Origin: Saccharomonospora viridis DSM 43017
GTDB lineage: Bacteria; Actinomycetota; Actinomycetes; Mycobacteriales; Pseudonocardiaceae
NCBI RefSeq assembly: GCF_000023865.1
Contig: NC_013159.1
Span: forward strand, 1,886,001-1,950,000
DNA: 64,000 nt
Direction: 5' to 3'
Positions within the stretch are counted from its first letter, which is position 1. Each line of letters opens with the position of its first letter. Below, one piece after another: positions 15,409 to 64,000 of this stretch. The position numbers were made by a program, and so were the translations under genes. The notes beneath the pieces are model-generated. The model had not been told where the DNA came from, did no database searches, and was given only the letters and a program-made list of their open reading frames with translations.

Positions 15409-15510
15409 CTCCGTGACGACCTCACCGTCCGCCCCGGCCGGCGAGGCTCGGCACCGGTTCACTCGTCGGCCGGTACCCGATGTGTCCTTTGAACACCATC
15501 GAGTCCCCGA

Positions 15511-15909: not shown

Positions 15910-16325
15910 CGCGCGGAGGTACCCGCGGCCGGCCGAGACAAACCGCCCGGTGGCGTGGGGCCCCTGGTTCACCGGATCGACCCACCGAGATGCCGGGTGG
16001 CGGTTCGCGCAGCCCAGCGATCTCGTCGCGGCCGGACGCGAAGAGTGACCATCCCATTGCTTTAAGCGTAAGAGCGATCCGAGTGATCTCGTTGCCCGTG
16101 TCGTTGTGAGTGACGGAGACGGCGACCGGGCAGCGTACCGATTCCGTCCCGATGACCGGCACGCGTTCAGGAGGTGCCCAGCACACTGCCGGTGGCGGCC
16201 GCGCTCGTACGTCGATCCTCGATGCTCGTTTCGACGAATCCCTTGGGAACGCGAGCAGCGTGATGCTTTCGGGGCTTCCCGTCGTCGAGACCGGACCCGC
16301 GGGTTCCGCGTGGAGGGCGAGCGCC
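15910..16325. other. Gene-free stretch
   Basis: No gene is supported on either strand. The open frames extending into it are upstream extensions of the SnoaL-like frame or antisense shadows. It presumably carries the SnoaL-like promoter and the terminator of the interrupted membrane-protein gene. Confidence 0.4.
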
Positions 16326-19382: not shown

Positions 19383-19383
19383 G

Positions 19384-20636: not shown

Positions 20637-22370
20637 ATGCGCGAGAATGGTGATCCTTCGAGAGGGTCAGAATCTACGCTCGTGTCGGCGGTTTCCCGGT
20701 GGGCGGAAATCGACGCCGAACGGCCAGCCTTATTCTTCGTCAGAGATCCGGAAAACGCCGCCGCGAATGATTCGCTGACTTACGGGCAGCTCTATGAAAA
20801 AGCGTGCGCAGTGGCGGGATGGTTGAAAAACAACCTGCCGCGGGGTTCCCGTGTCCTGCTGCTGTATCCGCAGGGGATTGAGTTCGCCGTCGCGTTCCTG
20901 GGCTGTCTGCGTGCCGGCATGATCGCGGTGCCTGCACCCCTGCCGACCGGCCGTGACCAGGAAGATCGTCGGATCGAGGGCATCGCGAAAGACTCCGGTG
21001 CCGTCGTCGTGATGACTTCCCGGAACGGGGCCGAAGCGGTCGGTCGCTGGTTGCGTGACACAGGCTCCTGTCGGTTGGATTCGTTCGTCACGGACGATGC
21101 GGAACCGTCGCCCGGTATTGAGGAATGGGGGAGTGAACCGGTCGACCCGGATTCGTTGGCCGTGCTTCAGTACACCTCCGGATCGACCAATGCGCCGAAA
21201 GGCGTCATGGTCAGTCACCGGGCCATGCACGTCAGCGTGACGAACCAGATATCCGCCCTTTGTCTCGAGTCGGGAATGCGCATGGGCGGCTGGCTCCCGC
21301 TTTATCACGACATGGGTTTGCTGGCCACTCTGGCGCCGGCGTTGTTCCTCGGTTCGTCCTGCGTCCTGCTCGACGTTCGAACTTTTTTGAAACGGCCTAT
21401 CTCGTGGTTGAAACTCATTGATCGGTTCGACGTGGCGTTCTCCGCGGCACCGAATTTCGCCTACGAGATGTGCTGTAAGCGGATCTCCGACGAGGAGTTG
21501 TCCGGGCTCGACCTCTCCCGATGGAGGTACGTGGTCAGCGGCTCGGAGCCCATCCAAGCGGAGACGATGCGGCGATTCGCGCGTCGTTTCGCCGCCGTCG
21601 GGTTGGACGTGGACGCCCTGGTGCCCGCATACGGACTTGCGGAGACGGTCGTCTTCGTGTCCGCTGCGAACGGACTGCGCACCAGGTCGATGGGAGACGA
21701 GCGTGAGGTGGTCGGTTGCGGCCCCGTCGAGGGGTTGGAGGCCGTGATCGTCGACCCCGTGACCATGACCCAGCGGCCAGATGGGCAGACCGGCGAATTA
21801 CTGCTGCGCGGATCGAGCGTGTGCGCGGGTTACTGGCAGAACGAGGCCGCTACGGAGGAGACGTTCCGGGTGGAGGTACCCGGACGCGGAACCGGGTGGC
21901 TGCGTACCGGTGACCTGGCGGCGCTGTGGGAAGGGGAGCTGTTCCTCGTCGGCCGGATCAAGGAGACCCTGATCGTGCACGGCCGCAATGTGCATCCCCA
22001 CGACCTCGAGTACGAGGTGCGGCTGCATCATCCGGAGCTCGGCCACGTGGGCGCGGCCTTCGCCGTCCGCGCGAGCGACGGTGGCGCCGAACAGGTGATC
22101 CTCACGCACGAGGTGTCCGACTCGGTGCCCCGGGAACGGTTACCGGACCTGGCCGTCGCCATGCGCCGGACCGTGGCGCGGGAACTCGGGATCACGGTCG
22201 CCGGCGTCGGCTTGCTGCCGAAAGGCGGTGTACTCAGGACCACCAGCGGAAAGGTCCGCAGGCTCTCGATGCGAAAGCTGTTCTGTGACGGCACGTTGGA
22301 GCACGTCTACCTCGATCGAGGTGCCCGGGAACTGTTCGGCGCGAGACGGCGGAATGCGAGCACGACGTGA
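20637..22370 (+). CDS. dptE-like: Fatty acyl-AMP ligase (DptE-like)
   Basis: A 577-residue adenylate-forming enzyme that activates the free fatty acid as acyl-AMP and passes it to the carrier protein encoded three genes downstream. A3 phosphate loop: 'LQYTSGSTNAPKGVMVSH' (from about residue 177). The FAAL hallmark 'GWLPLYHDMGLLATL' (about 216-230) separates it from CoA ligases. A5 is 'PAYGLAETVVF', A7 'GWLRTGDLA' and A8 region 'LFLVGRIKETLIVHGRNVHPHDLE'; the catalytic Lys is probably in 'TTSGKVRRL'. The ATG at 20637 has only a weak ribosome site (GGCGG), but no better in-frame start lies just upstream. Its stop overlaps the next GTG as GTGA. DptE of the daptomycin pathway has the same role. 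Confidence 0.93.
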   Translation: MRENGDPSRGSESTLVSAVSRWAEIDAERPALFFVRDPENAAANDSLTYGQLYEKACAVAGWLKNNLPRGSRVLLLYPQGIEFAVAFLGCLRAGMIAVPAPLPTGRDQEDRRIEGIAKDSGAVVVMTSRNGAEAVGRWLRDTGSCRLDSFVTDDAEPSPGIEEWGSEPVDPDSLAVLQYTSGSTNAPKGVMVSHRAMHVSVTNQISALCLESGMRMGGWLPLYHDMGLLATLAPALFLGSSCVLLDVRTFLKRPISWLKLIDRFDVAFSAAPNFAYEMCCKRISDEELSGLDLSRWRYVVSGSEPIQAETMRRFARRFAAVGLDVDALVPAYGLAETVVFVSAANGLRTRSMGDEREVVGCGPVEGLEAVIVDPVTMTQRPDGQTGELLLRGSSVCAGYWQNEAATEETFRVEVPGRGTGWLRTGDLAALWEGELFLVGRIKETLIVHGRNVHPHDLEYEVRLHHPELGHVGAAFAVRASDGGAEQVILTHEVSDSVPRERLPDLAVAMRRTVARELGITVAGVGLLPKGGVLRTTSGKVRRLSMRKLFCDGTLEHVYLDRGARELFGARRRNASTT

Positions 22371-24118
22371 CGGTGATCGGGACGCGCCCGCATGATCAGG
22401 CGATGATCGAGTCGGTCGCGGCTCGACTGGCGGAGGCGAGTGCCGAGCCCGATCAGGCGTTCCACCCGGCCACCGTGGCCGCATTGGACGAGCGTGACGA
22501 GTTCCCGACGACAGCGTGTCGGATGCTGACCGAGTGGGGACTGTCCCGGTGGTACGTCCCAAAGGAGCACGGCGGTGAGCTGGTCGACTACCTGACGTTG
22601 GTGCGTCTGGTCCGACTGGTCGCACGCAAGGATCTGACCTCAGCCGTCGCGCACGCGAAGACCTTCCTCGGTGCCGTCGCGGTGTGGTTGGGCGGTGACG
22701 CCGAACAGGCGAAGGATCTCGCCGCGCGGATCAACGACGGTGCCGTCGTGTCGTGGGCGCTCACCGAACGGCGACACGGCAGCGATCTGCAGGCCAGCGA
22801 GGTCACCGCGTCGGCCGTCGACGGCGGATGGCGGATCACCGGCGAGAAATGGCTGATCAACAATGCGACACGGGCCGATGCGGTGTGCCTGCTCGCACGC
22901 ACGGAACCGGTCCCGGAACGCCCCTCGGGTGGGTTGAGCTTCTTCCTGCTCGACAAGTCGGCCCTGGCGGGTGGGGCCTATCGGCATCTGCCGAAGGAAC
23001 GCACACTCGGCATCCGTGGTGCCGACATCAGCGGTATCGCGGTCGACACCGTCGTACCACCGGAGGCCCTCGTCGGGGACGTGGGCGACGGACTGCCACT
23101 GGTCGTCCGTTGCCTGCAACTCACGCGGACGATGTGCGCCGGACTGTCACTGGGCGCGGCGGACCATGCGCTGCGGCTGGCCATGACGTACGCCTCGGAA
23201 CGGGTCGTCTCCGGTAGCCGACTGATCGAGCTGGCGACGGTGCGTCGGACGTTGGGTGAGGTCGCGGCCTCGGCGCTGCTCGCCGAGGCGGCCTCGATCA
23301 CGGCGGCGCGTGGGGTGGCCACGCTCACCGGAGAACAAGGCGTGGCGGCCCCGGTGGTCAAGGCACTGGTGCCGAACCTGGTGCAGGAGGGGATCGAGCG
23401 GATCGGCGAACTCCTCGGTGCCCGGGGGTTTTTGACCGACGTCTACGCCGACGGCAGCTTCGCCAAACTCGATCGCGATCACCGGATCGTCGGCATCTTC
23501 GACGGGACCACCTCGGTGTGCCGTCACAGTCTGATCGCCCAATTCCCGTGGCTGGTCCGCGGCTGGAACGGTCGAAGGTGCGATCTCGAGGGCGTGAGAG
23601 CCGCCTCGGCACTGCACACGGTGCCCCGCCGACCGGATCTCTCGCGGTTGAGCGTCGTCGCCCGCACCGGATGCAGCCAAGTGCAGAGTCTGCCGACGCT
23701 CGTCGAACACGTCGAGCGGATGGCGAGGTCCGGTGCCGTTCCCGACGCGGTGGCACGACTGGCCGACGCGGTGCGGTCGGCCGCGGACCGACTGCATCAG
23801 GAGCTCGCCGCCCAGCGGCCCTCCGCGGCAGGAGCGCCCGCCACCGCGTTCGAACTGGCCGAGCGGTACGAGCTCTGCTACGCCGCCGCGTCCTGCCTGA
23901 GCCTGCTGTGCTTCGCCGAGTCGCCGACCCCGGCGGCCCATGTCCTGCGGGTGCGTGCGGCGCTGGCGATCGCGGTGATGAGACTTCGCGAATTCGACGA
24001 GGAGACGACGGACCCCTCCGCGTCGGCCGCCGATGCGTTGGAGGACCTCGTCACGGAATGGCAGCACACCGCGACGGTCCCGTCGTGGTTCGACGCCGAC
24101 CGGGACGGTGACCGATGA
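22367..24118 (+). CDS. Acyl-CoA dehydrogenase-like protein 1, tail desaturation
   Basis: A 583-residue acyl-CoA dehydrogenase homologue with a C-terminal extension. N-terminal helical domain: 'WGLSRWYVPKEHGGELVDYLT'. Middle beta domain: 'VVSWALTERRHGSDLQASEVTA' and 'GEKWLINNATRADAVCLLAR'. C-terminal helical domain from about 235. At the position of the catalytic Glu ('YEGT' in classical enzymes) it has 'GIFDGTTS', so Asp379 may be the base. The substrate is probably the acyl chain bound to the downstream carrier protein, giving a double bond. It overlaps both neighbours (GTGA and ATGA), so the pair with the next dehydrogenase is made in equal amounts. Daptomycin's cluster lacks such genes; ramoplanin, enduracidin and friulimicin clusters have them. 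Confidence 0.9.
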   Translation: MTVIGTRPHDQAMIESVAARLAEASAEPDQAFHPATVAALDERDEFPTTACRMLTEWGLSRWYVPKEHGGELVDYLTLVRLVRLVARKDLTSAVAHAKTFLGAVAVWLGGDAEQAKDLAARINDGAVVSWALTERRHGSDLQASEVTASAVDGGWRITGEKWLINNATRADAVCLLARTEPVPERPSGGLSFFLLDKSALAGGAYRHLPKERTLGIRGADISGIAVDTVVPPEALVGDVGDGLPLVVRCLQLTRTMCAGLSLGAADHALRLAMTYASERVVSGSRLIELATVRRTLGEVAASALLAEAASITAARGVATLTGEQGVAAPVVKALVPNLVQEGIERIGELLGARGFLTDVYADGSFAKLDRDHRIVGIFDGTTSVCRHSLIAQFPWLVRGWNGRRCDLEGVRAASALHTVPRRPDLSRLSVVARTGCSQVQSLPTLVEHVERMARSGAVPDAVARLADAVRSAADRLHQELAAQRPSAAGAPATAFELAERYELCYAAASCLSLLCFAESPTPAAHVLRVRAALAIAVMRLREFDEETTDPSASAADALEDLVTEWQHTATVPSWFDADRDGDR

Positions 24119-25764
24119 CGGCGGAAGCGGTGGGTACGCGCGCAGCGAAGTTGCGCGCCCGACTCGGTGACCTGTTGGACCCGGACAACCCGCTCGGCTA
24201 CGCGTCGGTGCTGGCCGCCGACGAACGTGCGGAGATGTTCGCCGAAGGCGAGCGAAAGCTCGACGAGTTCGGCTTGGGAGCCGAGTTCGTCCCCGCCGAG
24301 CTGGGGGGTCGGTTACGCGGGCTGGACGAACTGATCGACGTGCTCCGTGTGGTCTACGGGCACGATCCGTGCCTCGGCGCCGGATACGGGGTGAGTTCGT
24401 TCATCGCCGCCACCAACGTGTGGACGGCGGGTAGTGCCGAACAACGAGCCGACGTGGCGAGCCTGTTGCTCGACAACGGGAAGCTGGCGACCGCCTACAA
24501 CGAACTCGCGCACGGCAACGACCTGTCCGCCTGTGAGGTGGCGGTGACCTCCCACGGCAACGGCCGGGTCCTGAACGGTCGGAAGGAGGTCATCACCAAC
24601 GCCGCGCGGGCCGACGCGTTCGTGGTGTTCGCCAGGACGAGCCAGAAGCCGGGGAGTCGAAGCCACACGCCGATCCTCGTGGACCCCACGACGGCGCCGC
24701 CGGGGACGGTGGTGACATTGCCGCGCTACCGCACCGATGGACTGCGCGGACTGCCGCTGGCCGGAGTGGAGTTCCGGGACCACCCGGTCCCCGACGACCG
24801 ACTGATCGGAGAACCCGGACACGGACTCGAGACGGCGTTGCGTGCCTTCCAGGTGACCAGGATCGCCCTGAGCGGGATGGCGACCGGCCTGCTCGACACG
24901 GCGCTGCGGATCACGCTGCGGCACGTGTCCCGACGCGCCCTCTACGGAGGCGCCGTGATCAACCTGCCGTTGATCCGCGCCCAACTGGCCGCCGCGTACG
25001 CCGACCTGGTGGTGTGCGAGACGGTCGCGGACGTGGCCGCCCGGGCGGTGCATCTGACACCGGCCGAGGCGAGTATCCCCGCGGCCTCGACGAAATACCT
25101 GGTCTCCGGGTTGGTGTCGCGTGCCCTCGGTGGTCTGGCCGCCGTTCTCGGGGCGTACTCGTATGTGCGTAACGGCGAGACCGGGATCTTCCAGAAACTG
25201 GTGCGTGACGCGAAATCCGTCGCCATCGTGCATGCCTCGCGCGTGGCGTGCCAACAGACCATCCTGCCGCAACTCGTACTGCTGGCGCGCCGTAGTTGGC
25301 ACGGCGAGGCGACGCCCGTCGAAGAACTGTTCCACTTCGGCGAGGAGCTTCCGGAACTGCCCTGGGACCGGCTGTCGGTCAGTGCGAAAGGGATCGACCG
25401 ACTGACCCCGCTGGTGTTGCGTGAGGCCGACCGCGACCAACCGGATGTCCGGCTAAGACGAATGGTCACCGACTTCGCGGGCGAGTTGCGGGAACTGGCC
25501 GGAGAATGCGCGACCTTGCCCATGGCGCAGCTTCAGCCCACCGCAGGGCCACACAGCTACGAGCTGGTCTCTCGGTTCATCAACGTCACGGCGGGCGCGG
25601 CCTGCATCGGGCGTTGGCGAGACCGGGATCCGGTTTACGTCTCGGCGTTGCTGAGCAGGTTGCCGTTGAGAGGGAAACGGCGATGCGCTCCTTTCGACGA
25701 GGAGCAGACCGAACGGCTGATCACGGACATGCGGAAACGGTATCCGAATGACCTGCCGAACTGA
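24115..25764 (+). CDS. Acyl-CoA dehydrogenase-like protein 2, lacks canonical catalytic Glu
   Basis: A 549-residue acyl-CoA dehydrogenase homologue, coupled to the previous one by ATGA. Family features: 'GLGAEFVPAELGGRLRGLDELI', 'ATAYNELAHGNDLSACEVAVT', 'VLNGRKEVITNAARADAFVVFARTS' and the FAD-domain helix 'FQVTRIALSGMATGLLDTALR'. In the active-site segment the classical 'YEGT' is replaced by 'IVHASRVACQQ' (His373-Ala-Ser), so no acidic base is present there. It could use another residue, or act as the partner of dehydrogenase 1 in a heteromer, as in the Mycobacterium FadE28-FadE29 type. Together they may make the two conjugated double bonds of a 2,4-dienoyl tail; this is inference from gene content. 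Confidence 0.88.
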   Translation: MTAEAVGTRAAKLRARLGDLLDPDNPLGYASVLAADERAEMFAEGERKLDEFGLGAEFVPAELGGRLRGLDELIDVLRVVYGHDPCLGAGYGVSSFIAATNVWTAGSAEQRADVASLLLDNGKLATAYNELAHGNDLSACEVAVTSHGNGRVLNGRKEVITNAARADAFVVFARTSQKPGSRSHTPILVDPTTAPPGTVVTLPRYRTDGLRGLPLAGVEFRDHPVPDDRLIGEPGHGLETALRAFQVTRIALSGMATGLLDTALRITLRHVSRRALYGGAVINLPLIRAQLAAAYADLVVCETVADVAARAVHLTPAEASIPAASTKYLVSGLVSRALGGLAAVLGAYSYVRNGETGIFQKLVRDAKSVAIVHASRVACQQTILPQLVLLARRSWHGEATPVEELFHFGEELPELPWDRLSVSAKGIDRLTPLVLREADRDQPDVRLRRMVTDFAGELRELAGECATLPMAQLQPTAGPHSYELVSRFINVTAGAACIGRWRDRDPVYVSALLSRLPLRGKRRCAPFDEEQTERLITDMRKRYPNDLPN

Positions 25765-25793
25765 TTCCCGGAGCAGAGAAATGGGGAGTGACG

Positions 25794-26054
25794 ATGCCTG
25801 ATGCCGGTGAGAAGGGTTCTTCGGATCAGATCGGGAAATGGCTTGTCCAGCAGGTTTCCGCCTTCTCCGGAGTCGCGGCCGAGCAGATCGATGTAACGGC
25901 ACCGTTGTCCGAATACGGTTTGGACTCGGTTTCCGCGTTGGCGATCTGTGCGGCGATCGAGGACGAATACGACATTGAGATAGAGCCGACGTTGCTGTGG
26001 GACGTGGACACCGTGTCCGCCCTGGTCGATTCCATCGTCGAGCGATTGCCGTGA
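25794..26054 (+). CDS. dptF-like: Acyl carrier protein for the lipid tail (DptF-like)
   Basis: An 86-residue stand-alone carrier protein. The phosphopantetheine site is the Ser in 'YGLDSVSALAICAAIEDEYDIEIE'. ATG 25794 is chosen because GGGGAG lies 5 bases upstream; a GTG at 25788 overlaps that site. The N-terminal extension is short and polar ('MPDAGEKGSSDQIGKW'). It receives the acyl group from the acyl-AMP ligase, presents it to the dehydrogenases and donates it to the starter condensation domain of NRPS-1, encoded 54 bp downstream. DptF is the counterpart in the daptomycin pathway. Confidence 0.93.
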   Translation: MPDAGEKGSSDQIGKWLVQQVSAFSGVAAEQIDVTAPLSEYGLDSVSALAICAAIEDEYDIEIEPTLLWDVDTVSALVDSIVERLP

Positions 26055-26108
26055 CGCATCCCAGAACACTTTCCGGATCCGGGTGAGCTGTTGAAAGTGG
26101 GCGAGAAC

Positions 26109-43405
<17,297 letters not shown>

Positions 43406-43409
<4 letters not shown>

Positions 43410-49400: not shown

Positions 49401-52400
49401 CGCTGACCGCCAACGGCAAGGTCGACCGGCGGTCGTTGCCCGCACCCCCCACGACGAACCGAAAGAGCACCGGCAGAGCCCCGCGCACCCCGGTCGAGGA
49501 GATCCTGTGCGGACTGTTCGCCGAGGCGCTCGGCGTGGCCGCCGTGACCGTCGACGACGACTTCTTCGCCCTGGGCGGACATTCCCTGCTGGCGATGCGG
49601 CTGATGAACCGGGTGCGCGCGGTCCTGGGCGTCGACCTGCGGTTGCGGGCCCTGTTCGACACCCCGACCGTGGCCGGGCTCGCCGAGGGCATCGCACGCG
49701 GTGCCGGCGTGCGGCGTGCGCTGGTGGGTCGTCCCCGGCCCGCACGGCCACCGCTGTCCTTCGCCCAGCAACGCCTGTGGTTCCTCTACGAACTGGACGG
49801 CCCATCACCCACGTACAACGTGCCGATGGCGTTGCGCCTGTCCGGCGACCTGGACGTGGCGGCGCTGCGGCTCGCACTGCGCGACGTCGTCGCCCGACAC
49901 GAGAGTCTGCGCACGGTGATCGAGTCCGACGAGCACGGCGCCTACCAACGGATCGTGCCCGTCGAGGCGGTCGATGTGGAACTGGCCGTCGAGACACTCG
50001 ACGAAGCCCGCTTGGCCGACGCGCTCGCCGACAACGTCGGCCACGGCTTCGCGTTGGACCGGGACATCCCGGTGCGGGCCTGGTTGTACCGGATCGCGCC
50101 TCGGGAACACGTGTTCCTGCTGCTCGTCCACCACATCGCCACCGACGGGTGGTCGAAGGGACCGCTGACACGGGATCTGACCGTCGCCTACGCGGCCCGG
50201 CGACGAGGGCGGCAGCCACAGTGGTCACCGTGCCCCGTGCAGTACGCCGACTACGCGGTATGGCAACGGGAGACACTGGGGGACACCGAAAGGGACGACA
50301 GCGTACTGGCCCGACAACTGGCCTACTGGCGCGACGCCTTGGCCGGCCTGCCCGACGAACTGAACCTGCCCGTGGACCGGCCCCGGCCGGCGGTGCCCAG
50401 CCACCGAGGAGACCGTGTCGAATTCACCGTCGACGCAAAGCTCCACGCCCGGCTGGCGGAACTGGCCCGCGCCCACGGGGTCACGGTGTTCATGGTGTTG
50501 CAGGCCGCGCTGGCCACGCTGCTCACCCGGCTCGGGGCGGGCACCGACATCCCGATCGGCTCCCCGGTCGCAGGTCGCGATGACGAGGCGACCAACGACG
50601 TGGTCGGGTACTTCGTCAACACGCTCGTGCTGCGCACCGACACCGAGGGAAATCCCACCTTCGCCGAACTGCTCGCCAGGGTGCGGCGCACCAACCTCGC
50701 CGCGTACGCCCACCAGGACGTGCCGTTCGAGTTGCTGGTGGACGCCGTCCAACCGGAACGGTCGTTGGCACGGCACCCCCTGTTCCAGGTGATGCTGGCG
50801 TTCAACAGCACCGATCACGAGGTCCCTCCCGAGTCGGCCATGGCCGACTCCGGCCTCACCGTGACACCGGTGCGGACCCCCACCACGTCGGCCAAGTTCG
50901 ACCTGTTGTTCGGCTTCGCCGAAGAGGAGTCCGGGGGCTTGGTCTGCTCGGTCGAGTTCAGCACCGACCTGTTCGACCGGGCGACGGTCGACGACATGAT
51001 CGCGCGGTTGTCCCGCGTGCTGCGCACCGCCGTGACCGCACCGGATCTGTCGATCGGCGGTTACGACGTGCTCGCCGCCGACGAACGACACCGGCTGCTG
51101 TCCGGCTGGAACGACACCGACCGGGACACCAGTGGTCGCTCACCGATCGAGTTGTTCGAGGACCAGGTGCGCCGCACCCCGGACGCGGTGGCCGTGTGCT
51201 CCGGTGACGTCCGGCTCACCTACGCGGAGCTGAACACGCGGGCCGACCGGTTGGCCGCCGTCCTGTGTGCCCTGGGAGTGGGGACGGAACGGCTCGTCGC
51301 GGTCGCGTTGCCGCGGACCGAGCAACTGGTCGTCGCGCTGCTTGCGATCCTCAAGGCCGGTGGGGCCTACCTCCCGGTCGACGCGGACTACCCGGCGGAA
51401 CGCCTCGCGTACCTGTTCGCCGACGCTCGCCCGGCCCTGCTGCTGAGCTCACGCAGCCAGGTCGAAAGACTCGCCGTCGAGCCCGAGATCCCGACGCTGC
51501 TCCTCGACGAGGCCACTGTCGAACCGGTGGACCCGCAGCAGAGCGAGCCGAACGAGCGGGACCGTGCCGCAGCGCTCGATCGCCTGTCCTACGTGATCTA
51601 CACGTCCGGATCGACCGGGCGCCCCAAGGGGGTCGGCGTCTCCGCGCGGAGCATGGCGAACCTGCTGGAGTGGGCGCGCGCCGAATTCGGCGCCGACGCG
51701 TTCACCCGGGTGATCTTCGCGACGTCGCTGAACTTCGACGTCTCCGTGTTCGAGCTGTTCGGACCACTGGTCAGCGGTGGCACCGTGGAGATCGTCGACG
51801 ACCTGTTGGCCCTCCTCGACCGTCCCCGCGGCTGGTCGGCCGGGATGCTCAGCGCGGTACCGTCGGCGTTCGCGAGACTGCTGGCCGCGGGCGCGTTGGA
51901 CGCCCACATCGGACTGATCGTGCTCGCGGGTGAGGCGTTGCCCTCGACGCTGGTCGACGACATCCGCAGGCGCCTGCCGACGACTCGGGTGGTGAACGCC
52001 TACGGGCCGACCGAGGCCACGGTCTACACCACCTGGTACCGCGACGACTCCCGGAAGCATGCGGAACTGCCACAGGTGCCGATCGGGCGGGGACTGCCGA
52101 ACACCCGGCTGTACGTCCTCGACCGGTACCTCGAACCCGTCCCGGTCGGCGTGGTCGGGGAGCTCTACCTCGCCGGGTCCGGACTCGCTCGGGGTTATCT
52201 GCGTCGTCCGGGGTTGTCCGCCGAGCGGTTCGTCGCGTGTCCGTTCGGTGAGCCGGGGGCGCGGATGTATCGGACCGGGGATCTGGTGCGGTGGTTGCCC
52301 AGCGGTGATCTGGTCTACGTCGGTCGGGCGGACGAGCAGGTCAAGGTGCGCGGCTTCCGGATCGAACCCGGCGAGATCGAAGCGGCTCTGACGGACATAT

Positions 52401-55400
52401 CCGGTGTCGCTCAAGCGGCGGTGGTGGTGCGGGAGGACGTCCCCGGCGATCGGCGCCTCGTCGCGTACGTGGTGCCCGCCGATACGGGGATCGGAATCGA
52501 CGAACACGCACTGGCGACCGCCCTGCGGTCCCGCCTGCCGGAATACCTCATCCCCTCGGTGTTCGTGCTGCTGCCCGAACTGCCGATGAACCGGAACGGC
52601 AAACTGGACCGCAAGGCACTGCCCGCGCCCACGGTCGAAACCGAGTCCTTCACCGGTCCGCGAACGCCCACCGAACAGGTGCTGTGCGAGTTGTTCTCGG
52701 CGGTGCTCGGTGTGCCCGAGGTCGGCGTCCACGACGGGTTCTTCGCGTTGGGCGGCGACAGCATCCTGTCCATCCAGCTCGTGGGACAGGCCCGCCGAGC
52801 CGGACTGAGGATGTCGGTGCGGGACGTCTTCGAACACAAGACCGTCGCGGGCCTGGCCGCCGCGCTGGACGAGACGAGCCCGACCGGGCATCCCCAGGCG
52901 AGCGAGGCCGAATCGGACGGCGACACCGGGGACGAGGGGATCGGTGAGGTCGTCGTCACCCCGATCATGGAATGGCTGGCCGAGCGCGGCGGTGAGATCG
53001 CCGAGTTCAACCAGTCGATGGTGGTGCACACCCCCGCCGGGGCGAGCCTCGAGCGGATCGTCGCCACGTTGCGTGCGGTGTCGGACCACCATGACGCACT
53101 CCGCATGCGACTGTCCGATGAGGATGGACTGTGGCGGCTGTTCGTCGACGGGCCGGGCGGCGTCCGCGTCGACGACCTCGTCACCGTGCTCGACGGGACC
53201 GGACTCGACGACGAGGAGATCCGGCCGCTCCTGCGCGACGCCGCGGAATCCGCCCGGAGCCGGTTGAGCCCCTCGGACGGGGTGATGACGCGGTACGTCT
53301 GGTGCGACCGGGGAGCCGAGGAACAGGGCTTGTTGCTGCTGGTCGCGCACCACCTCGTGGTGGACGGCGTGTCCTGGCGGATCCTGCTCGGCGACCTCGC
53401 CCGAGCCTACGCGGACCTCGACGCGGGTCGGACCCCGAGACTGCTGCCGGTGGGCACGTCGTTCAGACAGTGGGCCGACCACCTGGCGGAGCTGGCGAGC
53501 CGACCGGAGCGACTCGATGAACTGAGCCACTGGACACGGACACTGCGAGCGGTCGAACCGCTCGCCGACGACGAACTCGACCCGGCACGCGACACCCACG
53601 CCACGGCCCGGTCGTTCGAACGGACGTTGCCGGCCGAGGTGACCGGCACGTTGCTCACCGGACTGGTCGAGAGGTTCCGGGTCGGTATGAAGGAGGTCCT
53701 GCTGGCGGGCCTGTCGGTCGCGCTGTCCCGTTGGCACGGCGGCACGGCCACCGTCGTCGACCTCGAAGGCCACGGCCGGGAAGAGCACCTCATGCCCGGT
53801 GCGGATCTTTCCCGCACCGTCGGGTGGTTCACCACCCTGTACCCGGTCCTGTTGGACACCGGGCCGGTCGACTGGGGTGATGCGTCGGCCAGGTCCGAAC
53901 TGCTCACCCGGACCCTGCGGACCACCGCCGAGGCACTGGCCGCCGTCCCGGACAACGGCATCGGCTACGGCCTGCTGCGCTACCTGCACCCGAGGGCGGG
54001 ACGGAAACTGCGCCGGTTCGCCGAACCCGACCTGTGCCTCAACTACCTCGGCCGCATCCGGTCGACCGTCGACGGCGCCGAGACGTCGACGGACTGGGCA
54101 CCGGCCACCGGCCCGGCCGCGATCGGCGCCGGCCAGCACCCCGACCTGCCGTTGGCGCACGCGATCGAGCTGAACGCGGTGATCCAGGACGACGGCGTGG
54201 CCCCGAGACTGGCCGCCACCTGGACGTGGGCCGGGAGGATCGTCGACGAGGACCGGGTGCGCAGGCTGGCCGAGCTGTGGTTCGACACGCTGACCGAATT
54301 GGCCGCGCTCGTCACCGAACCGGCGGACGACTCGCACCCCGCCGGACTCGACGGCGTATCCGAGGCCGAACTGTCCGAACTGGTCTCGAACTTCGACGGA
54401 GGGGTCGAGCAGGTCCTGCCCGTACTACCGCTGCAGGAAGGCCTGCTGTTCCACGCCGCGCTGGCCGACGGCGGCATCGACGCGTACGTGGGGCAACAGG
54501 TCTTCGAGTTGGTCGGTGCGGTCGATGTCGAACGGATGCGTGAGGCGGTGGCGGGCCTGTTCCGGCGGCACGAGGGCCTGCGGGTGTGTTTCCGACAGGT
54601 GAGCTCGGGAAGCTGGGTACAGGTCGTGGCGCGGACGGTGACGACACCGTTCGACGTGGTCGATCTGCGGGACTCGGACGACGCCGAGCGCGAGTTCGAG
54701 CGCCTGGCCGAGGAACAGCGGGCGCGTGGCTTCGACGTGACGTCGGGCCCGCTGGCGCGATTCGTCCTGGCGCGGGTGTCGGAGGACGTCTTCCGGTTCG
54801 TGGTGACCAATCACCACGCGATCTGGGACGGTTGGTCGATCCCGATCGTGTTGCGGGACCTGCTCGCGCTGTACCGGGGCGACGAACCCGGTCGGGCACC
54901 CGGCCTCGGCGCCGTGGTTCGGGAGCTGGTCGCATCGAGCGGTGGCGGTCGGGAGTTCTGGGGCCACGTCCTGGGTGGTGTCGAACCGTGTCTGATCGGC
55001 ACGGGCGACGCCACCGGAAGCGGCGCCGCCGAGTCGCTTTCCAGGGTGATCGACTCGGAGCTGTCGGCCCGGTTCACGGAACTGGCCCGAGACAACGGCG
55101 TGACGGCCTCCACGGTGGTCCAGGCGGCGTGGAGCGTGGTGCTGTCGGGTCTGCTCTGCCGTGACGACGTGGTGTTCGGGGCGACGGTGTCCGGCCGCCC
55201 CGACGACGTCGAAGGCATCCGGGAGACCGTCGGCATGCTGATCAACACCGTTCCGGTGCGGGTCGGTTTGACCGCCGACGAACCGGTCGCCGACCTGCTT
55301 TCGCGGTTGCACCGGGAATTCGGTCGAATCCTGGACCACCAGTTCGACCGGCTGGTCGACGTCCAGACCTGGTCCGGAGTCGGCGGTGACCTGTTCGACA

Positions 55401-58400
55401 CCGTGGTGGTGTTCGAGAACTTCCCGGTCGCGGAGGTGACCGAGGACCAGAAGGGCGGTGACCTCACCGTCCGCCGAATCGGAGGCGCCAGCGGCACCCA
55501 CTACCCGTTGACCCTCAACGCGTCGATGCGTGGTCGGGAACTGGAACTCCGGCTCCTCTACCAGCCGGGCCTGCTCGCCGACGAGGTCGCGGTCCGGGTG
55601 TTGGACTCGTTCACCACGGTCCTCGAGGGATTCGTCGCCGGCGACCGACGACTCGGCGAACTCGACCTCCTGCCGCGACCACAACGCTCCCGCCTGTTGC
55701 GCGACTGGGGCGAAACGGGGCCCGCGTCCCCCTGGGACCCCGCGGTGACCGTGCCGGAACTGGTCGCCGAACAGGCCCGCCGTACCCCGGAGGCGGTCGC
55801 GGTGGTGTGTGCCGATTCGACGTCACCCGCGTCCGCGCTCACCTACGCCGAACTGGACGCCCGCGCCAACCGCCTCGCGCGACGGTTGGTCGAACTCGGG
55901 GTCGGGCCGGAACGACTGGTCGGGGTGCTGTTGGGCAAGACTCCCGACCTGGTGGTCGCCTTGCTCGCGGTCCTGCGGGCCGGCGGTGCCTACGTCCCCA
56001 TCGACCCCGAATACCCGGACGACCGGATCGACTACGTGGTCAGGGACGCCGCGCCGGTGTTGGTGTTGACCGACACGGCGTCGGCCACGCGCGTCCCGGC
56101 GGGACACCGGAGGCTGGTGCTCGACGATCCGGCGACGGCCGAAGCCGTGGCCGAGCTTGCCGAGGGGCCGCTGAGCGATGCCGAACGCGGCGGACCGGTC
56201 GAACCGGATCAGGCCGCGTACGTGATCTACACGTCCGGTTCGACAGGACGGCCGAAGGGCGTCGTGGTCTCGGTCGGGGCGATGTCGGCGTACGTGCGTC
56301 GTAGTGCCGCGGCCTACCCGGACGCCGCCGGGAGCGGGCTCGTGCACTCCTCGGTGGCCTTCGATTTGACCCTCACCGTGCTGTTCACACCGCTGGCCGT
56401 CGGCGGGGCCGTGCACCTCGTCGACCGGCTCGACGAACACTCCGCGGCGGTGGACGTGTCGCTGTTGAAGGTGACCCCCTCGCACCTGCCCTTGCTGGAG
56501 GAGTTGCCCGAGCTCGTACCGTCGACCTTGGTGATCGGGGGCGAGGCGCTGTTCGGTCGTGCCCTGGTCCCGTGGCGGGCCGCGCACCCGGAGAGCACGG
56601 TGATCAACGCCTACGGGCCGACCGAGCTGACGGTGAACTGCGCAGAGTTCGTGCTCCCACCACACACGCCACAGGGGAACGGACCCGTGCCGATCGGTAA
56701 GCCGTTCCCCGGCTTCCGGGTGTTCGTGTTGGACCACTGGCTGCGCCCGGTACCGGTGGGTGTGCCCGGTGAACTGTACGTCTCCGGGGTCGGGATGGCC
56801 CGCGGCTACCTGGGTCGGTCCGCGCTGACCGCCGAACGCTTCGTCGCCTGCCCCTACGGGGAACCGGGACAGCGGATGTACCGGACCGGAGACCAGGTCC
56901 GTTGGTCGCCGGACGGCAACCTGGAGTACGTCGGGCGAGTCGACCACCAGGTCAAGGTGCGGGGCCACCGCATCGAACTCGGCGAGATCGAAGCGGTCCT
57001 CGCCGAACACCCCGAGGTCTCCCGTGCGGTGGCCGTGGTGCGCGAGGACACCGCGGGCGATCGACGGATCGTGGCCTACCTGGGCACCGATTCCGACACC
57101 CCGGTGAGCACCGCGGACGTGGCGGCCCACGTCAGGAGCCGGTTGCCCGACTACATGGTGCCCTCGGCGTTCGTGACGCTCGCCGAGTTCCCGCTGACCG
57201 CCAACGGGAAGATCGACCGCGCCGCGTTGCCGGAACCGCGGACGACCGGCACGGTCGACAACGGGCCCCGCGATCCGTACGAGGAGATCCTCTGCGGCCT
57301 GTTCGCCGATGTACTCGACGTACCCGCGGTGGGCGTCGACGACGACTTCTTCGACCTGGGTGGGCACTCCCTGCTGGCCATCCGGCTGATCAGCCGGGTG
57401 CGGTCGGTCTTGGGCGTGCAACTCGGCATCCGTGAGTTCTTCGACCGGCCGACGGTCGCCGCACTCGCCGTGGGACTGGGACGGTCCGCGGACGCCGCAC
57501 CCTCCAAAGTGGTCGCGGTGTCACCCAGGCCGGAGCGGGTGCCGTTGTCGTTCGCGCAGCGACGGTTGTGGTTCCTCTACCAGATGGAGGGGCCGTCGGC
57601 GACGTACAACGTGCCGTTGATGCTGCGTATCCGCGGGGACCTCGACGTGGAGGCCATGGCGGCGGCGTTGACCGACCTCGTCCACCGGCACGAGACGTTG
57701 CGCACCCTCTTCCAGGCCGATGAGGACGGTCCCTGGCAGCGGGTGCTGCCCGCCGAGGACGTGCGGGTGGAGCTCGTGCCGGTCGAGGTCACCGAGGACG
57801 GACTGGCCGAGCGGCTGAGGGCCGTCGCTCGATACGAATTCGCGTTGCACGCAGAAATCCCCGTCCACCCCCGGCTGTTCCGGCTCTCCGCGGACGAGCA
57901 CGTACTCGTCGTGGTGGTGCACCACATCGCGACGGACGGGTGGTCGTACGAGCCCTTCGTGCGGGACCTCACCACGGCCTACCTCGCGCGTCGGTCGGGC
58001 GAACCGCCCGTTTGGGAGCCCCTTCCGGTGCAGTACGCCGACTACGCGCTCTGGCAACAGGCGCACCTCGGCCACGAACACGACCGAAACAGCGCCGTGG
58101 CCGCCCAACTCGCCTACTGGCGTGACGCGCTGGCGGACCTGCCGGAGGAGCTGAACCTTCCGTTCGATCGACCCCGACCCGCCGTCGCCACCTACCGGGG
58201 TGACCGGGTCGAGTTCACCGTGCCCGCCGACCTGAGCGAGCGGATCACCGCGGTGGCGAGGGAACGCAGGGTCACGGTGGTCATGGTGTTGCAGGCCGCC
58301 GTGGCCGCGCTGTTGACCAGGCTCGGCGCGGGCACCGACATCCCGATGGGCTCGCCGATCGCCGGTCGGACCGACGAGGCGACCAACGACCTGATCGGGT

Positions 58401-61400
58401 TCTTCGTCAACACCCTGATCCTGCGCACGGACACCTCCGGCGACCCCACCTTCGGCGAACTGCTCGACCGGGTGCGAAAGGTCGATCTGGCCGCCTACGC
58501 ACACCAGGACATCCCGTTCGAGCGATTGGTGGAGGTCGTCAACCCCACCCGGTCGATGGCCCGGCACCCGTTGTTCCAGGTGCTGTTCTCGGTCAGCCAG
58601 TTCGCTCCCCGCGACGACACCGTGTCGACGTTGTCGGGCGCCGGGATCGAGGTGCGACGCGAGTCGATCGAGGCCCGGATCGCGAAATTCGACCTGAGCT
58701 TCTCGTTCACCCGCTCGGACGCCGAGTGGCGCGGCATGATCGAATTCAGCGTCGACCTGTTCGACCGGGAGACCGTGACGGCCATGAGCGAACGGTTGCT
58801 CCGGCTGCTGGCGGCGGCGGTGGCCGCCCCGGACGTGCCGATCGGGGCGCTCCCCGTGTTGGACAGTGTCGAACGGCGGCGAGTGCTGACCGAATGGAAC
58901 GACACGGCGCATCCGGTGGAAACCGGTTTGCTCGAGTCGTTCCAGGCACAGGTCGCCGCCACGCCCGATGCGATCGCCCTCGCGTACGGGGACGGCACGC
59001 TGACCTACGCCGAGCTCGACGCGAAGGCCAACCGACTGGCCGCGTTCCTACGCGCCCGCGGTGCCGCGTCGGAACGGCTCGTCGCCGTGGCGTTGCCGCG
59101 CACCCCCGACCTGCTCGTCACGCTGTTGGCGATCCTCAAAACCGGTGCCGCCTACCTGCCGATCGACACCGGGTATCCGGCGGACCGCATCTCCTACATG
59201 TTCGACGACGCCGCCCCGGCGTTGGCCGTCACCACCGGCGAGCTCGTCGAGCGTGTGCCGACTCGCGAGGGCACGCAGGTGCTGCTGCTCGACGACCCGG
59301 ACGTGATCGACGCCGTCGACGCGGAGTCCGAGGACTTCCCCACGATCCCCAGGGACGCCGACACCGCCGCATACGTGATCTACACGTCCGGCTCGACCGG
59401 CCGCCCGAAGGGCGTGGTCGTGACGAGCGCCAACCTGGACAACTTCCTGGTGGACATGCGCGGTCGGATCGGCCTGGACGCCGACGACCGACTGCTCGCG
59501 GTCACTACGATCGGCTTCGACATCGCCGCGCTCGAACTGTTCCTGCCGTTGGTCAGCGGAGCCCGGGTGGTGCTGGCCGATCCGGATGTGGTGCGCGACC
59601 CGGCCGCCGTCGTGCGACTGTGCGAGCGGGCGGGGGTCACCGCGATCCAGGCGACGCCGAGTTGGTGGCGGGCGCTCGTGCAGGACGGCGAGACCGGCCG
59701 GCTTGACCTCGGTACGGCACTGGTCGGCGGGGAAGCCCTCCCCGGCGACGTGGCCCGCGCGTTGACCGGGATCGCCGCGTCCGTGACGAACGTGTACGGG
59801 CCCACCGAGACCACGATCTGGTCGACGGCCGCGTCGGTGACCGGGGAACCGGACATGCGACCGTCGATCGGGGTGCCGATCGGCAACACCTCGGTGTTCG
59901 TGTTGGACGAACGGCTCGCACCCGTGCCGGTCGGCGTGGTCGGCGAACTGTACATCGCCGGTGCCGGTGTCGCGCGCGGCTACCTGGGGCGGCCGGGGCT
60001 GACCGCGGAACGGTTCGTGGCATGCCCGTTCGGCGAACCCGGCGAACGGATGTACCGCACCGGGGACCTGGTGCGGTGGCTGTCGGACGGCACCTTGGCC
60101 TACGTCGGTCGGGTGGACGACCAGGTGAAACTACGCGGGTTCCGCATCGAACTCGGCGAGATCGAGTCGGTGTTGCGGGAGCTGCCGGAGGTCGCCGGCG
60201 CGGCCGTGGTGGTGCGGGAGGATCGGCCCGGCGACCACCGGTTGGTCGGGTATGTCGTGCCCGCACCCGGTGTCGAACCCGACCGGGCACGGTTGGTCGC
60301 GCAGCTCCGTTCCCGGCTGCCCGACTACATGGTGCCGGCGGCGTTCGTGGTCCTCGATGAGCTTCCGATGACACCGAACGGGAAACTGGACCGGCGCTCG
60401 CTGCCCGCACCGCAGCTTGAGGCGGCGGCCGCGTCCAGAGCACCGAGGAACCCCCGTGAGGAGATCCTGGCCGAGCTGTTCGCGGACGTGCTCGGGGTGT
60501 CCACAGTGGGCATCGACGACGACTTCTTCGCGCTCGGCGGACATTCGCTGTTGGCCACGAGATTGGTGAGCCGGGTGCGCTCGACGCTGGGGGTGGAGCT
60601 GAGCCTGCGTGCGTTGTTCGAGGCGCCCACCGTGGCCGGGTTGTCGGCGGCGCTCGACGGTGCCCAGGCCACGGGCAGGCCCGCGTTGCGGGCTGTGGAG
60701 TCCCCGCCGGATCGGTTGCCGTTGTCGTACGCGCAGCGCCGCCTGTGGTTCCTGCATCGGATGGAAGGACCGTCGGCGACCTACAACGTGCCGCTGGCCT
60801 TGCGGCTGATCGGAACGCTCGACCCCGCCGCGTTGCGCGCCGCGCTCACCGACGTGATCGACCGGCACGAGCCGTTGCGAACGGTGGTCGCGGAGGACGA
60901 CCAGGGCCCGTACCAGAGGGTGCTCCCGACCGGATCGTGCGAGCTCCACCATCGACGGGTCGACGAGGACGACCTGGCCGCGGAACTGTCCCGCGCCGGT
61001 CGGCACGGCTTCGAATTGGACCGGGAGCCGCCGATTCGGGCGTGGCTGTTCGAACTCGCCGAGGACGAGAACGTGCTGCTGGTGGTGATGCACCACATCG
61101 CCACCGACGGCGCCTCGATGTCGGTGTTCCTGCGGGATCTCACCACCGCCTACGCGGCGCGTCGGCTCGGCGGGAAACCGGTGTGGAAACCGCTTCCGGT
61201 GCGATACGCGGACTACGCCCTGTGGCAGCAGGAGGTGCTCGGCAGTGAGACCGACCCGAACAGCATGCTGTCCGGCCAGATCGAGTACTGGAAGACGGCG
61301 CTGGCCGAGCTGCCCGAGGAGATCCGACTGCCCACCGACCGGCCCCGACCACCGGAGTCGTCCTACCGCGGTGAGCGAGTGCACTTCACCGTGCCCACGG

Positions 61401-64000
61401 AGCTTTCCCGGCGACTCGCCGAGCTGGCCGCCACCCGGCAGGCCACGGTGTTCATGGTGGTGCAGGCCGCGCTCGCCGCGTTGCTCACCCGACTCGGCGC
61501 GGGTACGGACATCCCCATCGGCACGCCGGTCGCCGGGCGGACCGACGAGGCGACCGACGAGTTGGTCGGACTGTTCGTGAACACCCTGGTCCTGCGCACG
61601 GACACCTCCGGTGACCCCAGCTTCACCGAGCTGCTCGATCGAGTGCGGGAGGTCGACCTGGGTGCCTACGCGAACCAGGACCTCCCGTTCGAGCGGCTCG
61701 TGGAGATCGTGAAGCCGGCGCGTGCGCTGAACCGGCATCCGCTGTTCCAGGTCATGTTGACCTTCGCCGGAACCACCGGCGAGGACGCCGACCGGCCCGT
61801 CGACGACGGGCTGCGGATCCGCCGGGAACCGCTCGAGGCGACGGTGGCGAAGTTCGACCTGCTGGTGAACATCGTCGAACAACCGGCGAACGGCCTGCGC
61901 GGCGTGGTCGAGTTCAGCACCGATCTGTTCGACCGCGCCACGGTCGAGACGTTGCTCGAACGACTGTTGCGCTTCCTGCGCGCGGTGGTGGCCGACCCGG
62001 CCGAGCGGATCGGCGCGCACGAGATCCTCACCGCGGACGAACGACACCGACTGCTGGCTGAATGGAACGACACCGGCACGCAGCGGACCGCGACGCTGCC
62101 GATCGAGCAGATCGAAAAACAGGCCGCCCTCCGTCCCGACGCCGTCGCGGTCACCCACGCCGACGCGACGCTGACCTACGCCGAACTGAACACGAGGGCC
62201 GACCGGCTGGCCCGGGTGTTGGTGGAGCGCGGCGCCGCACCGGAGCGGTTCGTGGCCGTCGCCATGGAACGCACCGTCGATCTGGTCGTGGCGGTGGTCG
62301 CGGTGCTCAAGACGGGGGCCGCGTACCTGCCGATCGACCACCGTTACCCGACGGAGCGCATCGAGTACCTGCTGACCGACGCCGACCCCGTGTCGTTCCT
62401 CGCCTCCTCGGCGACGTGGCCCACCCTGGCGGGTCTGGTGGCGGAGGAGGCGGTACTCCTGGTCGACCGACTCGAGCTGGACACGGCCGTCGAGGGAGCC
62501 GAGCCGATCGGACGGCACCGCTCGGCCCACCGGGACGGGGCCGCATACATGATCTACACGTCCGGGTCGACCGGCCGCCCGAAAGGCGTGGTCGTCACCC
62601 ATGGGAACCTGGCCGAGCTGATGGCCTGGGCCCGCACGGAATTCGGCGCCGAACGGTTGGCGCAGGTGGTGCTGTCCACCTCGCTGAGCTTCGACGTCTC
62701 GGTGTTCGAACTGTTCGCGCCGCTGTCCGTCGGCGGGACGGTGGAGATCGTCGACGACCTGCTCGTCCTCGCGGACCGTTCGGAGGCATGGTCGGCGAGC
62801 CTGGTCAGCTCGGTGCCGTCGGCGTTCTCCCGGCTGCTGACGGGAGGTCTGCTCGACCGGGCCGACATCGGCACGTTGGTGTTCGCGGGGGAGGCGTTAC
62901 CCGCGGCGACACTGGCCCGCATCCGCGAGGTGCTGCCGCACAGCGAGGTGTTCAACCTCTACGGTCCGACCGAGACGACCGTCTACTGCACCGGCGGTGC
63001 GCTCGACGTCGCCGACGGCGGCCGTTCGGCTCCTCCGATCGGCAGGCCGATGCCGAACACCCGGGCGTACGTATTGGACGAACGGCTCCGACCGGTCCCC
63101 GCGGGGGTCCCCGGAGAGCTGTACGTGGCCGGGGAACGCGTGTCACGCGGCTACCGGCGCCGCGCGTCACTCACCTCGACCCGGTTCGTCGCCTGTCCCT
63201 TCGGCCCGCTCGGTAGCCGGATGTACCGCACCGGAGACCTGGTGCGCTGGCTGCCCGACGGACGACTGGAGTTCCTCGCCCGGGTCGACGACCAGGTCAA
63301 GATCCGCGGGTTCAGGGTCGAACTGGGGGAGATCGAATCCGTCGTCGCCGCCCATCCGGACGTCGAACGCGTCGCCGTGGTCGCCCGCGAGGACACCCCC
63401 GGTGAGCCCAGGCTGGTCGCCTACGTCGTGGGCACGGTCGACCGGGCCGACCTGACGAGCTATGTCGCGGCCCGGCTGCCCGAGTACATGGCGCCGTCGG
63501 CGTACGTCGAGTTGACCGACCTGCCGTTGACCAGCAACGGCAAACTCGATCGTCGGGCGTTGCCCGCACCCGATGTCGAGGTCACGACCGAGGCGACACC
63601 GCGAAACGAGCGGGAGGAACTGCTGTGCGGTCTGTTCGCCCAGGTGCTCGGACTTCCGGAAGTCGGCATCACCGACGGGTTCTTCGCCCTGGGTGGCGAC
63701 AGCATCCTGTCGATCCAGTTGGTGGGGCTGGCCCGACAGGCCGGATTGGGACTGTCGGTGCGGGATGTGTTCGAACACCAGACGGTGGCCGGGTTGGCCA
63801 CCGTGGCGCGGGACCTGCCGACGGCGGGGACCGCACCGGTGAGCCGGGAGGCCGCCGTCGGGGAACTGCCACTGACCCCGATCATGGCGTGGCTTCACCA
63901 GCGTGACAGCGGTTCCGCCGGTTCCGCCCTGGCCGGGTTCAACCAGAGCCGGGTCGTGGCCGTCCCCGCCGGGGCTCGATACGACGACGTCCTGGCGGCG
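43406..64000 (+). CDS. dptBC-like: NRPS-2, six modules visible, residues 6-11 (DptBC-like), 3' end outside window
   Basis: The frame is open from GTG 43406 to the window end (6865 codons), preceded by GGGGGAG about 7 bases upstream and overlapping the NRPS-1 stop as GTGA. Domain order: C-A-T, C-A-T, C-A-T-E, C-A-T, C-A-T, C-A-T-E (last E cut at 64000). Specificity residues give a basic residue (Orn), Asp, Ala-like (epimerized), Asp, Gly and Ala-like (epimerized). Module count and E positions equal DptBC. The Asp-x-Asp-Gly of residues 7-10 is the calcium-binding motif of this antibiotic class. A near-identical 209-bp tract is duplicated inside modules 7 and 8. The protein should end within about 1.3 kb beyond the window if it matches DptBC. 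Confidence 0.96.
43430..46555 (+). other. NRPS-2 module 6: DCL-like C, A(Orn), T
   Basis: C about 43440-44710 starts '[17 protein letters not shown]' with '[12 protein letters not shown]', grouping with the post-epimerase C domains of modules 3 and 9. A about 44740-46290; the A4 region '[13 protein letters not shown]' is one residue short. Code read D-T-W-D-M-G-Y-V-D-K. Acidic residues at positions 278 and 331 suit a cationic side chain; Orn is proposed by position. Carrier '[11 protein letters not shown]'. Confidence 0.75.
46556..49720 (+). other. NRPS-2 module 7: C, A(Asp), T
   Basis: C about 46570-47930 ('[11 protein letters not shown]'). A about 47970-49440, code D-L-T-K-V-G-A-V-N-K (Asp), assembled from 'GFDLTVTAL', 'FTKATPSHL', 'LVLGGEAL' and '[13 protein letters not shown]'. 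Carrier '[11 protein letters not shown]'. Its C-terminal A subdomain contains the duplicated tract 48992-49200. Confidence 0.87.
48992..49200 (+). repeat. Duplicated A-domain tract, copy 1 (module 7)
   Basis: 209 bp matching 52172-52380 at 205 positions; the first 124 bp are identical. It encodes motifs A6-A8 (from '[15 protein letters not shown]' to '[10 protein letters not shown]'). Offset is exactly 3180 bp, in frame. Confidence 0.95.
49721..54400 (+). other. NRPS-2 module 8: C, A(Ala-like), T, E, D-residue 8
   Basis: C about 49740-51060 ('[11 protein letters not shown]'). A about 51100-52630, code D-V-F-S-V-A-A-V-Y-K. Carrier '[13 protein letters not shown]'. E about 52930-54310 with '[11 protein letters not shown]' and 'LNYLGRI'. 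D-Ala is proposed because this is position 8 of the daptomycin order; the code itself only says a small or hydrophobic pocket. Confidence 0.75.
52172..52380 (+). repeat. Duplicated A-domain tract, copy 2 (module 8)
   Basis: Partner of 48992-49200. Differences are only at the bases matching 49116, 49121, 49122 and 49156. Similarity drops sharply on both sides. Confidence 0.95.
54401..57520 (+). other. NRPS-2 module 9: DCL-type C, A(Asp), T
   Basis: C about 54400-55690 begins '[18 protein letters not shown]' with '[11 protein letters not shown]', as expected after an E domain. A about 55740-57230, code D-L-T-K-V-G-A-V-N-K (Asp). Carrier '[11 protein letters not shown]'. Confidence 0.87.
57521..60690 (+). 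other. NRPS-2 module 10: C, A(Gly), T
   Basis: C about 57530-58860 ('[11 protein letters not shown]'). A about 58900-60400, code D-I-L-Q-L-G-V-I-W-K, one residue (Val for Leu at 322) from the textbook Gly code. Carrier '[11 protein letters not shown]'. Confidence 0.9.
60691..64000 (+). other. NRPS-2 module 11: C, A(Ala-like), T, start of E
   Basis: C about 60690-62030 ('[11 protein letters not shown]'). A about 62060-63570, code D-V-F-S-V-A-L-V-Y-K, nearly the same as module 8 and unlike the Ser code D-V-W-H-L-S-L-I-D-K. Carrier '[13 protein letters not shown]'. '[14 protein letters not shown]' opens an epimerase that is cut by the window end. Confidence 0.78.

Follow-up and report, generated by a model that had tools for sequence, protein, structure and literature searches.

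The locus described here is almost certainly the complete cryptic cluster already on record for Saccharomonospora viridis DSM 43017, and its predicted product is des-chloro-taromycin, a cyclic, calcium-dependent lipopeptide from the daptomycin family. Earlier accounts of this desCl-taromycin cluster were reportedly given by Baltz in 2010 and in 2018. The analysed stretch of DNA (the window, 64,000 nucleotides) spans 1886001-1950000 in the one contig of the genome (4,308,349 bases) and holds 11 of the 13 modules of the nonribosomal peptide synthetases (NRPSs), the last two and further accessory genes lying beyond its right end. The same length is given for the complete genome of this strain (CP001683.1; PMC7990883). 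A sequence-only reading of the window had proposed a daptomycin/taromycin-type lipopeptide cluster; this identification is correct and already known from print, not new. Indeed, S. viridis DSM 43017 is entered with a finished "(desCl-Taromycin)" cluster, termed cryptic, in Baltz 2021 (PMC9113097), and taromycin-like compounds from S. viridis have been suggested independently (PMC7990883).

Gene content and organization of the assembly line

The genes, the domains and their order are direct observations, as are the codes of the adenylation (A) domains given in the next section. The features, with coordinates past 64000 continuing the window numbering (position in L009 plus 59000), are as follows:

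17922..18614, forward strand: dptP homologue (dptP-sv), DedA/VTT-domain membrane protein (Pfam VTT_dom, 1.6e-17)
18534..19382, reverse strand: ABC-2 permease, DptN-like exporter (Pfam ABC2_membrane, 6.6e-32)
19384..20325, reverse strand: ABC ATPase, DptM-like, DrrA-type (Pfam ABC_tran, 1.2e-31; NCBIfam drrA above cut-off)
20637..22370, forward strand: fatty acyl-AMP ligase (FAAL), Tar4/DptE-like, putative fatty-acid activation (AMP-binding, 3.9e-70)
22367..24118, forward strand: acyl-CoA dehydrogenase-family enzyme, Tar5-like, putative fatty-acid desaturation (three Acyl-CoA_dh Pfam domains)
24115..25764, forward strand: Tar6-like enzyme, the second of the acyl-CoA dehydrogenase family (three Pfam matches to Acyl-CoA_dh, of which the N-terminal is weak)
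25788..26054, forward strand: free-standing acyl carrier protein (ACP), DptF-like (an ORF of 88 aa; GLDSVSA motif of the carrier type; Pks13 model matched only weakly)
26091..43409, forward strand: NRPS 1, modules 1-5, predicted Trp, D-Asn, Asp, Thr, Gly (carrier and E motifs, five A-domain codes, C and E domains; ATG start possible at 26109)
26133..27437, forward strand: starter-type C domain of module 1 (Condensation, 1.2e-54; own branch in C-domain trees)
32442..33530, forward strand: E domain of module 2 (Pfam Condensation match; EGHGR motif)
43406..64000 in the window, on to 65338, forward strand: NRPS 2, modules 6-11, predicted Orn, Asp, D-Ala, Asp, Gly, D-Ala (motifs, A-domain codes)
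43439..44728, forward strand: C domain of module 6 (Pfam Condensation match; groups with C3, C9 and C12)
53003..54061, forward strand: E domain of module 8 (Pfam Condensation match; E motif)
63935..65032, forward strand: E domain of module 11, of which the first 66 bases (63935..64000) are inside the window (Pfam match; E motif)
65274-72491: NRPS 3, 2405 aa, CAT-CAT-TE, modules 12-13 (thioesterase match, 6.4e-29)
72488-72706: MbtH protein
72703-73752: DptI-type glutamate methyltransferase
73765-74496: tryptophan 2,3-dioxygenase, the sole one found in the genome
74662-75630: alpha/beta hydrolase (Abhydrolase_3, 2.8e-14)
75698-76441: type II thioesterase (1.3e-53)
next after the type II thioesterase, opposite strand: LysR gene

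The genes at 20637-64000, the span first assigned to the cluster, do belong to it, but its true start is further left, at the ABC transporter pair and the DedA-family gene (17922-20325). The lipid-initiation set is present, comprising the FAAL (20637-22370), the free ACP (25788-26054) and the starter-type C domain (C1), and the FAAL is adjoined by two fatty-acid dehydrogenases, as expected of a taromycin cluster, the first of which has 78% identity to Tar5 (PMC9113097). The top NCBIfam model for the FAAL is fatty-acid--AMP ligase (4e-113, under the model cut-off). Left of the cluster, at 8001-18000 of the window, G+C is 0.61-0.65 versus ~0.70 in the NRPS genes, and this region contains a Crp-family regulator (9509-10315), with several of its frames having no match in Pfam; G+C is also low (0.625) in the acyl-AMP ligase region.

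The 11 A domains of the window, with A3 motifs from 27933 to 62549, fall within two NRPS reading frames, 26091-43409 (5772 aa, five modules) and 43406-65338 (7310 aa, six modules), so the proposed 5+6 protein split is real, and the full assembly line is 5+6+2: 13 modules, of which 2, 8 and 11 have E domains, ending in a thioesterase. These E positions had been rightly called, but E11 lies almost wholly past the window end and, as it starts only at 63935, could only be inferred from the window, inside which the LGGDSI carrier motif preceding it is found. Pfam Condensation matches are far beyond chance for the 13 C domains (1.2e-54 to 3.4e-101) and the three E domains (2.1e-43 to 1.7e-48) of the cluster, which account for 16 of the 21 matches in the genome. 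The other five lie outside the window in a second, separate NRPS at ~2.21-2.22 Mb (genome positions 2212012-2222481), in one open frame of 3551 aa.

The two-module NRPS with thioesterase, the MbtH protein, the glutamate methyltransferase and the tryptophan dioxygenase, all anticipated to the right of the window, are present within 12.5 kb. The dioxygenase is short and divergent (138 bits versus an NCBIfam cut-off of 390.7), and the neighbouring alpha/beta hydrolase is, from its gene position, probably a kynurenine formamidase that removes the formyl group. A halogenase, which had been named as optional, was searched for throughout the genome with PF04820, and no tryptophan halogenase was found in the cluster. 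Two matches outside the cluster, each of 22.8 bits (cut-off 21), are located at 310 kb (a 427-aa open frame) and 2002 kb (an 822-aa open frame, ~40 kb past the last cluster gene); since they span only ~60 of the 458 model positions each (163-220 and 2-62), they were rejected as tryptophan halogenases and are probably other flavoproteins.

Residue codes and the predicted product

The 13 A domains were aligned and nine code positions were read, the final K being assumed; to locate the columns, the FD, P, GGE/TGD and NxYGPTE motifs were followed in module 12 and in module 13, with identical columns as the outcome. The codes of modules 1-5 are DVSTVGAVEK, DLTKMGDVHK, DLTKVGAVNK, DFWNIGMVHK and DILQLGLIWK, and those of modules 6-11 are DTWDMGYVDK (crossing a one-residue alignment gap, and the least certain of the 13), DLTKVGAVNK, DVFSVAAVYK, DLTKVGAVNK, DILQLGVIWK and DVFSVALVYK. 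From specificity tables and the known order of the family, we take these eleven to read Trp, Asn, Asp, Thr, Gly, Orn, Asp, Ala, Asp, Gly and Ala. The residue calls of the sequence-only reading hold and are sharpened by the code tables: module 2, with an acidic residue at code position 322, is Asn-like, module 6 Orn-like, and modules 8 and 11 Ala-like. By the same tables, the proposed Asp-x-Asp-Gly stretch at 7-10 is in place as Asp-Ala-Asp-Gly, and module 4 has a code read as Thr. The case confirms that raw sequence by itself is enough for a reader to recognise a family of clinically relevant antibiotics with single-residue detail.

The next NRPS, which had been expected to carry Glu and Kyn modules, has the codes DLGKTGVVNK (module 12) and DAWTTTGVGK (module 13). 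These are letter for letter the codes published for S. viridis, where they are assigned to 3-methyl-Glu (3mGlu) and Kyn (Table 7, PMC9113097); as the published codes were known while the columns were being placed, the agreement is an identity check rather than an independent prediction. The A-domain codes thus agree with the peptide Trp-Asn-Asp-Thr-Gly-Orn-Asp-Ala-Asp-Gly-Ala-3mGlu-Kyn, which suggests a calcium-dependent cyclic lipopeptide as the product.

The reactions and the stereochemistry can be predicted from the gene set. The acyl-AMP ligase would transfer a fatty acid to the free-standing ACP, the two acyl-CoA-dehydrogenase-like enzymes would probably desaturate it, and the starter C domain would couple it to Trp1. 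The three NRPSs would then assemble Trp-D-Asn-Asp-Thr-Gly-Orn-Asp-D-Ala-Asp-Gly-D-Ala-3mGlu-Kyn, and the last thioesterase would close the ring, Kyn13 onto Thr4. Kyn could be supplied by the tryptophan dioxygenase together with the neighbouring hydrolase and 3-methyl-Glu by the methyltransferase, while the ABC pair may serve for export of the lipopeptide and the DedA protein likely for self-protection of the producer.

That the cluster makes daptomycin itself, from a laterally moved dpt cluster, is very improbable: the module order and the Kyn/3mGlu ending are identical, but the code of module 11 (DVFSVALVYK) is Ala-like and not Ser, the last NRPS shows 82% identity to Tar10 versus 56% to DptD, and the two fatty-acid dehydrogenases match Tar5 and Tar6 (PMC9113097). 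Taromycin is the better-fitting of the two proposed names, and the Ala-like module 11 code agrees with it.

We also consider it highly unlikely that the cluster is decayed and non-functional. It is labelled cryptic (PMC9113097), and no report of a lipopeptide product from S. viridis was found in the literature searched (subscription papers being mostly outside its reach); however, the three NRPS frames contain no stop codon, the 13 carrier motifs and 16 HHxxxD motifs amount to one per expected domain, and the accessory frames are open too.

Finally, an A54145-type cluster, on the same 13-residue scaffold with 3-methyl-Glu at 12, Ile/Val at 13 and Lys at 8, is scarcely credible. The 3mGlu code is identical to that of A54145, the set of DedA and ABC transporter genes is the same, the length is equal, and the A54145-like NP-1717 cluster (Streptomyces sp.; described below) has its E domains at the same positions; yet there are three NRPS proteins here and not four, a tryptophan dioxygenase is present, module 13 has the Kyn code DAWTTTGVGK instead of DGLFVGIAVK, and modules 8 and 11 are Ala-like. 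A54145 itself has Asn at position 11 and is made by four NRPS proteins.

Relatives of the cluster and the domains around position 5

Relatives were sought with the methyltransferase, which matched 6 of 390 genomes of the family at E <= 1e-30 and 4 of 394 in a class-wide sample at 1e-40, S. viridis included in both cases, and none of the 11 other genomes listed for the same genus. The five other loci in the family (36-47% identity, 20-40 kb around) had scattered HHxxxD matches but neither A-domain nor carrier motifs, and the three other class-wide loci had no A or T motifs, with one EGHGR and two HHxxxD in one locus. A similar motif pattern recovers 13 of 13 carrier domains but only 9 of 13 A domains of the S. 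viridis cluster itself, and an isolated A domain in these relatives may thus have escaped notice. A single-protein scan of genome contigs gave no relative, and the plasmid collection gave 19 records with short matches only (<=17% of the query). A profile scan yielded 65 loci, all of which were searched for A-domain motifs and one of which (L038) was examined closely.

This locus belongs to Streptomyces sp. NP-1717 (L038, L107-L110; NZ_JAAPBF010000002.1) and contains an A54145-like 13-module cluster split 5+2+4+2 between its proteins, in which modules 2, 8 and 11 have E domains. Seven of its 13 codes were read by alignment, the other six A domains being seen as sequence only. The module 12 code is DLGKTGVVNK (3mGlu), and the last code, DVQYVGHVVK, is Pro-like instead of Ile/Val. 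Since A54145 ends in Ile/Val, and DVQYVAHVVK is given as a Pro code (PMC9113097), the NP-1717 cluster may be an A54145 variant, possibly an undescribed one. The 80 kb read revealed no counterpart of DptP-sv and none of the dioxygenase, and a text search of the literature for the strain name returned no paper. In the genus of NP-1717, the methyltransferase matched 2 of 392 genomes at 1e-70, NP-1717 (the centre of this set) and G937. In the latter (L113, contig C7), near a contig end, the methyltransferase is 60% identical to that of S. viridis and adjoins an MbtH gene; this is possibly another daptomycin-family cluster, perhaps the one that Baltz gives for Streptomyces sedi (PMC9113097).

When the 13 C and three E domains of S. 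viridis were placed in a tree, C3, C9 and C12, each preceded by an E domain, formed a single clade separate from the remaining elongation C domains. C6 is a member of this clade too, even though glycine is the residue of module 5 and an E domain is lacking there. We presume this clade to be the D-accepting type. When the 16 domains of NP-1717 were added, eight such C domains grouped together with a support of 0.994, both C6 among them. The carrier domains display a similar pattern. The LGGDS signature marks E-linked carriers, and it occurs in 4 of the 13 S. viridis carrier domains: the three before E domains and T5 (motif at 43152), 85 residues past which the NRPS 1 protein ends. In NP-1717, where the carrier-motif pattern caught 11 of 13 carrier domains (T8 and T13 were missed), T5 is also LGGDS and its protein ends 91 residues on; T1 is LGGDS too, without an E domain, and the signature alone is therefore not decisive.

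From these domain sequences, there is roughly an even chance that, in the daptomycin/taromycin line, position 5 once had an epimerase, lost as the module came to load glycine; in that case the line may still accept a D-residue there. CDA and friulimicin carry a D-residue at position 5, and the T5/C6 features of S. viridis and NP-1717 are perhaps a relic, with Gly or Sar in place of the former D-residue. A rival reading is that the C6 type reflects docking features common to subunit-first C domains rather than a lost epimerase, which is consistent with C12 being likewise subunit-first. If the T5/C6 pattern is general, it would explain the achiral residue at position 5, and D-residues could be tried there.

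The dptP homologue and comparison with known clusters

DptP-sv is likely a self-resistance protein, a role predicted from its similarities and location. It shares 52-61% identity in the best segment with the DedA genes that neighbour the ABC transporter genes of six A54145-type loci (L062, L064, L069, L070, L074 and L102), versus 44% at best with the five DedA paralogues of the S. viridis genome, two of which gave no match. Four of the six loci belong to species given for A54145 (PMC9113097), and the remaining two were called A54145-type from their neighbours. Streptomyces roseolus JCM 4411 (L070) and S. fulvorobeus NBRC 15897 (L102) present an LptI-like methyltransferase, MbtH, the ABC pair and the DedA gene; both species are absent from the A54145 strains in the available part of the PMC9113097 tables.

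The dptP gene has been termed DedA-family (PMC8212052), and an immunity role of DedA within the daptomycin cluster is in print (PMC10127716). DptP confers daptomycin resistance in S. ambofaciens, although Baltz prefers a role as export partner (PMC9113097). Arg120 and Arg126 of DptP-sv have the spacing of six of Arg112 and Arg118 in Bacillus subtilis UptA, a match by motif spacing only, and these UptA residues are important for C55-P binding (PMC11474028). The idea of DptP as a lipid-carrier flippase with target-based immunity was set aside as a new proposal, because the immunity role is already contained in PMC10127716. Text searches found no mention of dptP in PMC11474028 or PMC12826051 and none of daptomycin in PMC9876793, and a search of solved structures with DptP-sv gave no match up to E = 1.

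Among the known systems, lpt (A54145) of Streptomyces fradiae has in common with the S. viridis cluster the 3mGlu code and the 13-residue scaffold, and in its relatives a DedA-type gene adjoins the ABC transporter genes; in contrast, it differs in its Ile/Val end, D-Lys8, Sar and another protein split. The dpt cluster of Streptomyces roseosporus has E domains at 2, 8 and 11 and 5+6+2 modules, as here. It also shares the 13 residues, the 3mGlu-Kyn ending and dptMNP-type transport and immunity genes (PMC9113097). The two differ at position 11 (Ser in dpt versus Ala here), in the identities of the S. viridis proteins to DptE (the FAAL), DptD and DptI (47-56%), and in the acyl-tail dehydrogenase, absent from dpt in the available part of the PMC9113097 table.

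The tar cluster of Saccharomonospora sp. CNQ-490 is closer, with D-Ala at 11, two fatty-acid dehydrogenases, FAAL, ACP, the peptide order, the termination NRPS and the 3mGlu methyltransferase in common, and with identities of 74-82% between S. viridis proteins and Tar4, Tar5, Tar10 and Tar13 (PMC9113097). Nevertheless, tar has a tryptophan chlorinase, not found here, its Kyn code is DAWTTTGVAK versus DAWTTTGVGK, and the S. viridis acyl chain may be longer and di-unsaturated, as Baltz suggests (PMC9113097). The Kyn-loading termination NRPS and the FAAL/ACP pair are useful parts for lipopeptide engineering, and the S. viridis cluster is a known cryptic source of chlorine-free taromycin. Indeed, the published desCl-taromycin cluster of S. 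viridis DSM 43017 contains FAAL, ACP, two acyl-CoA dehydrogenases and homologues of DptD, DptI and dptMNP and has no chlorinase (PMC9113097). Its gene set, termination codes and missing chlorinase are identical to those found here, with no difference in the features compared, and it is therefore the same cluster.
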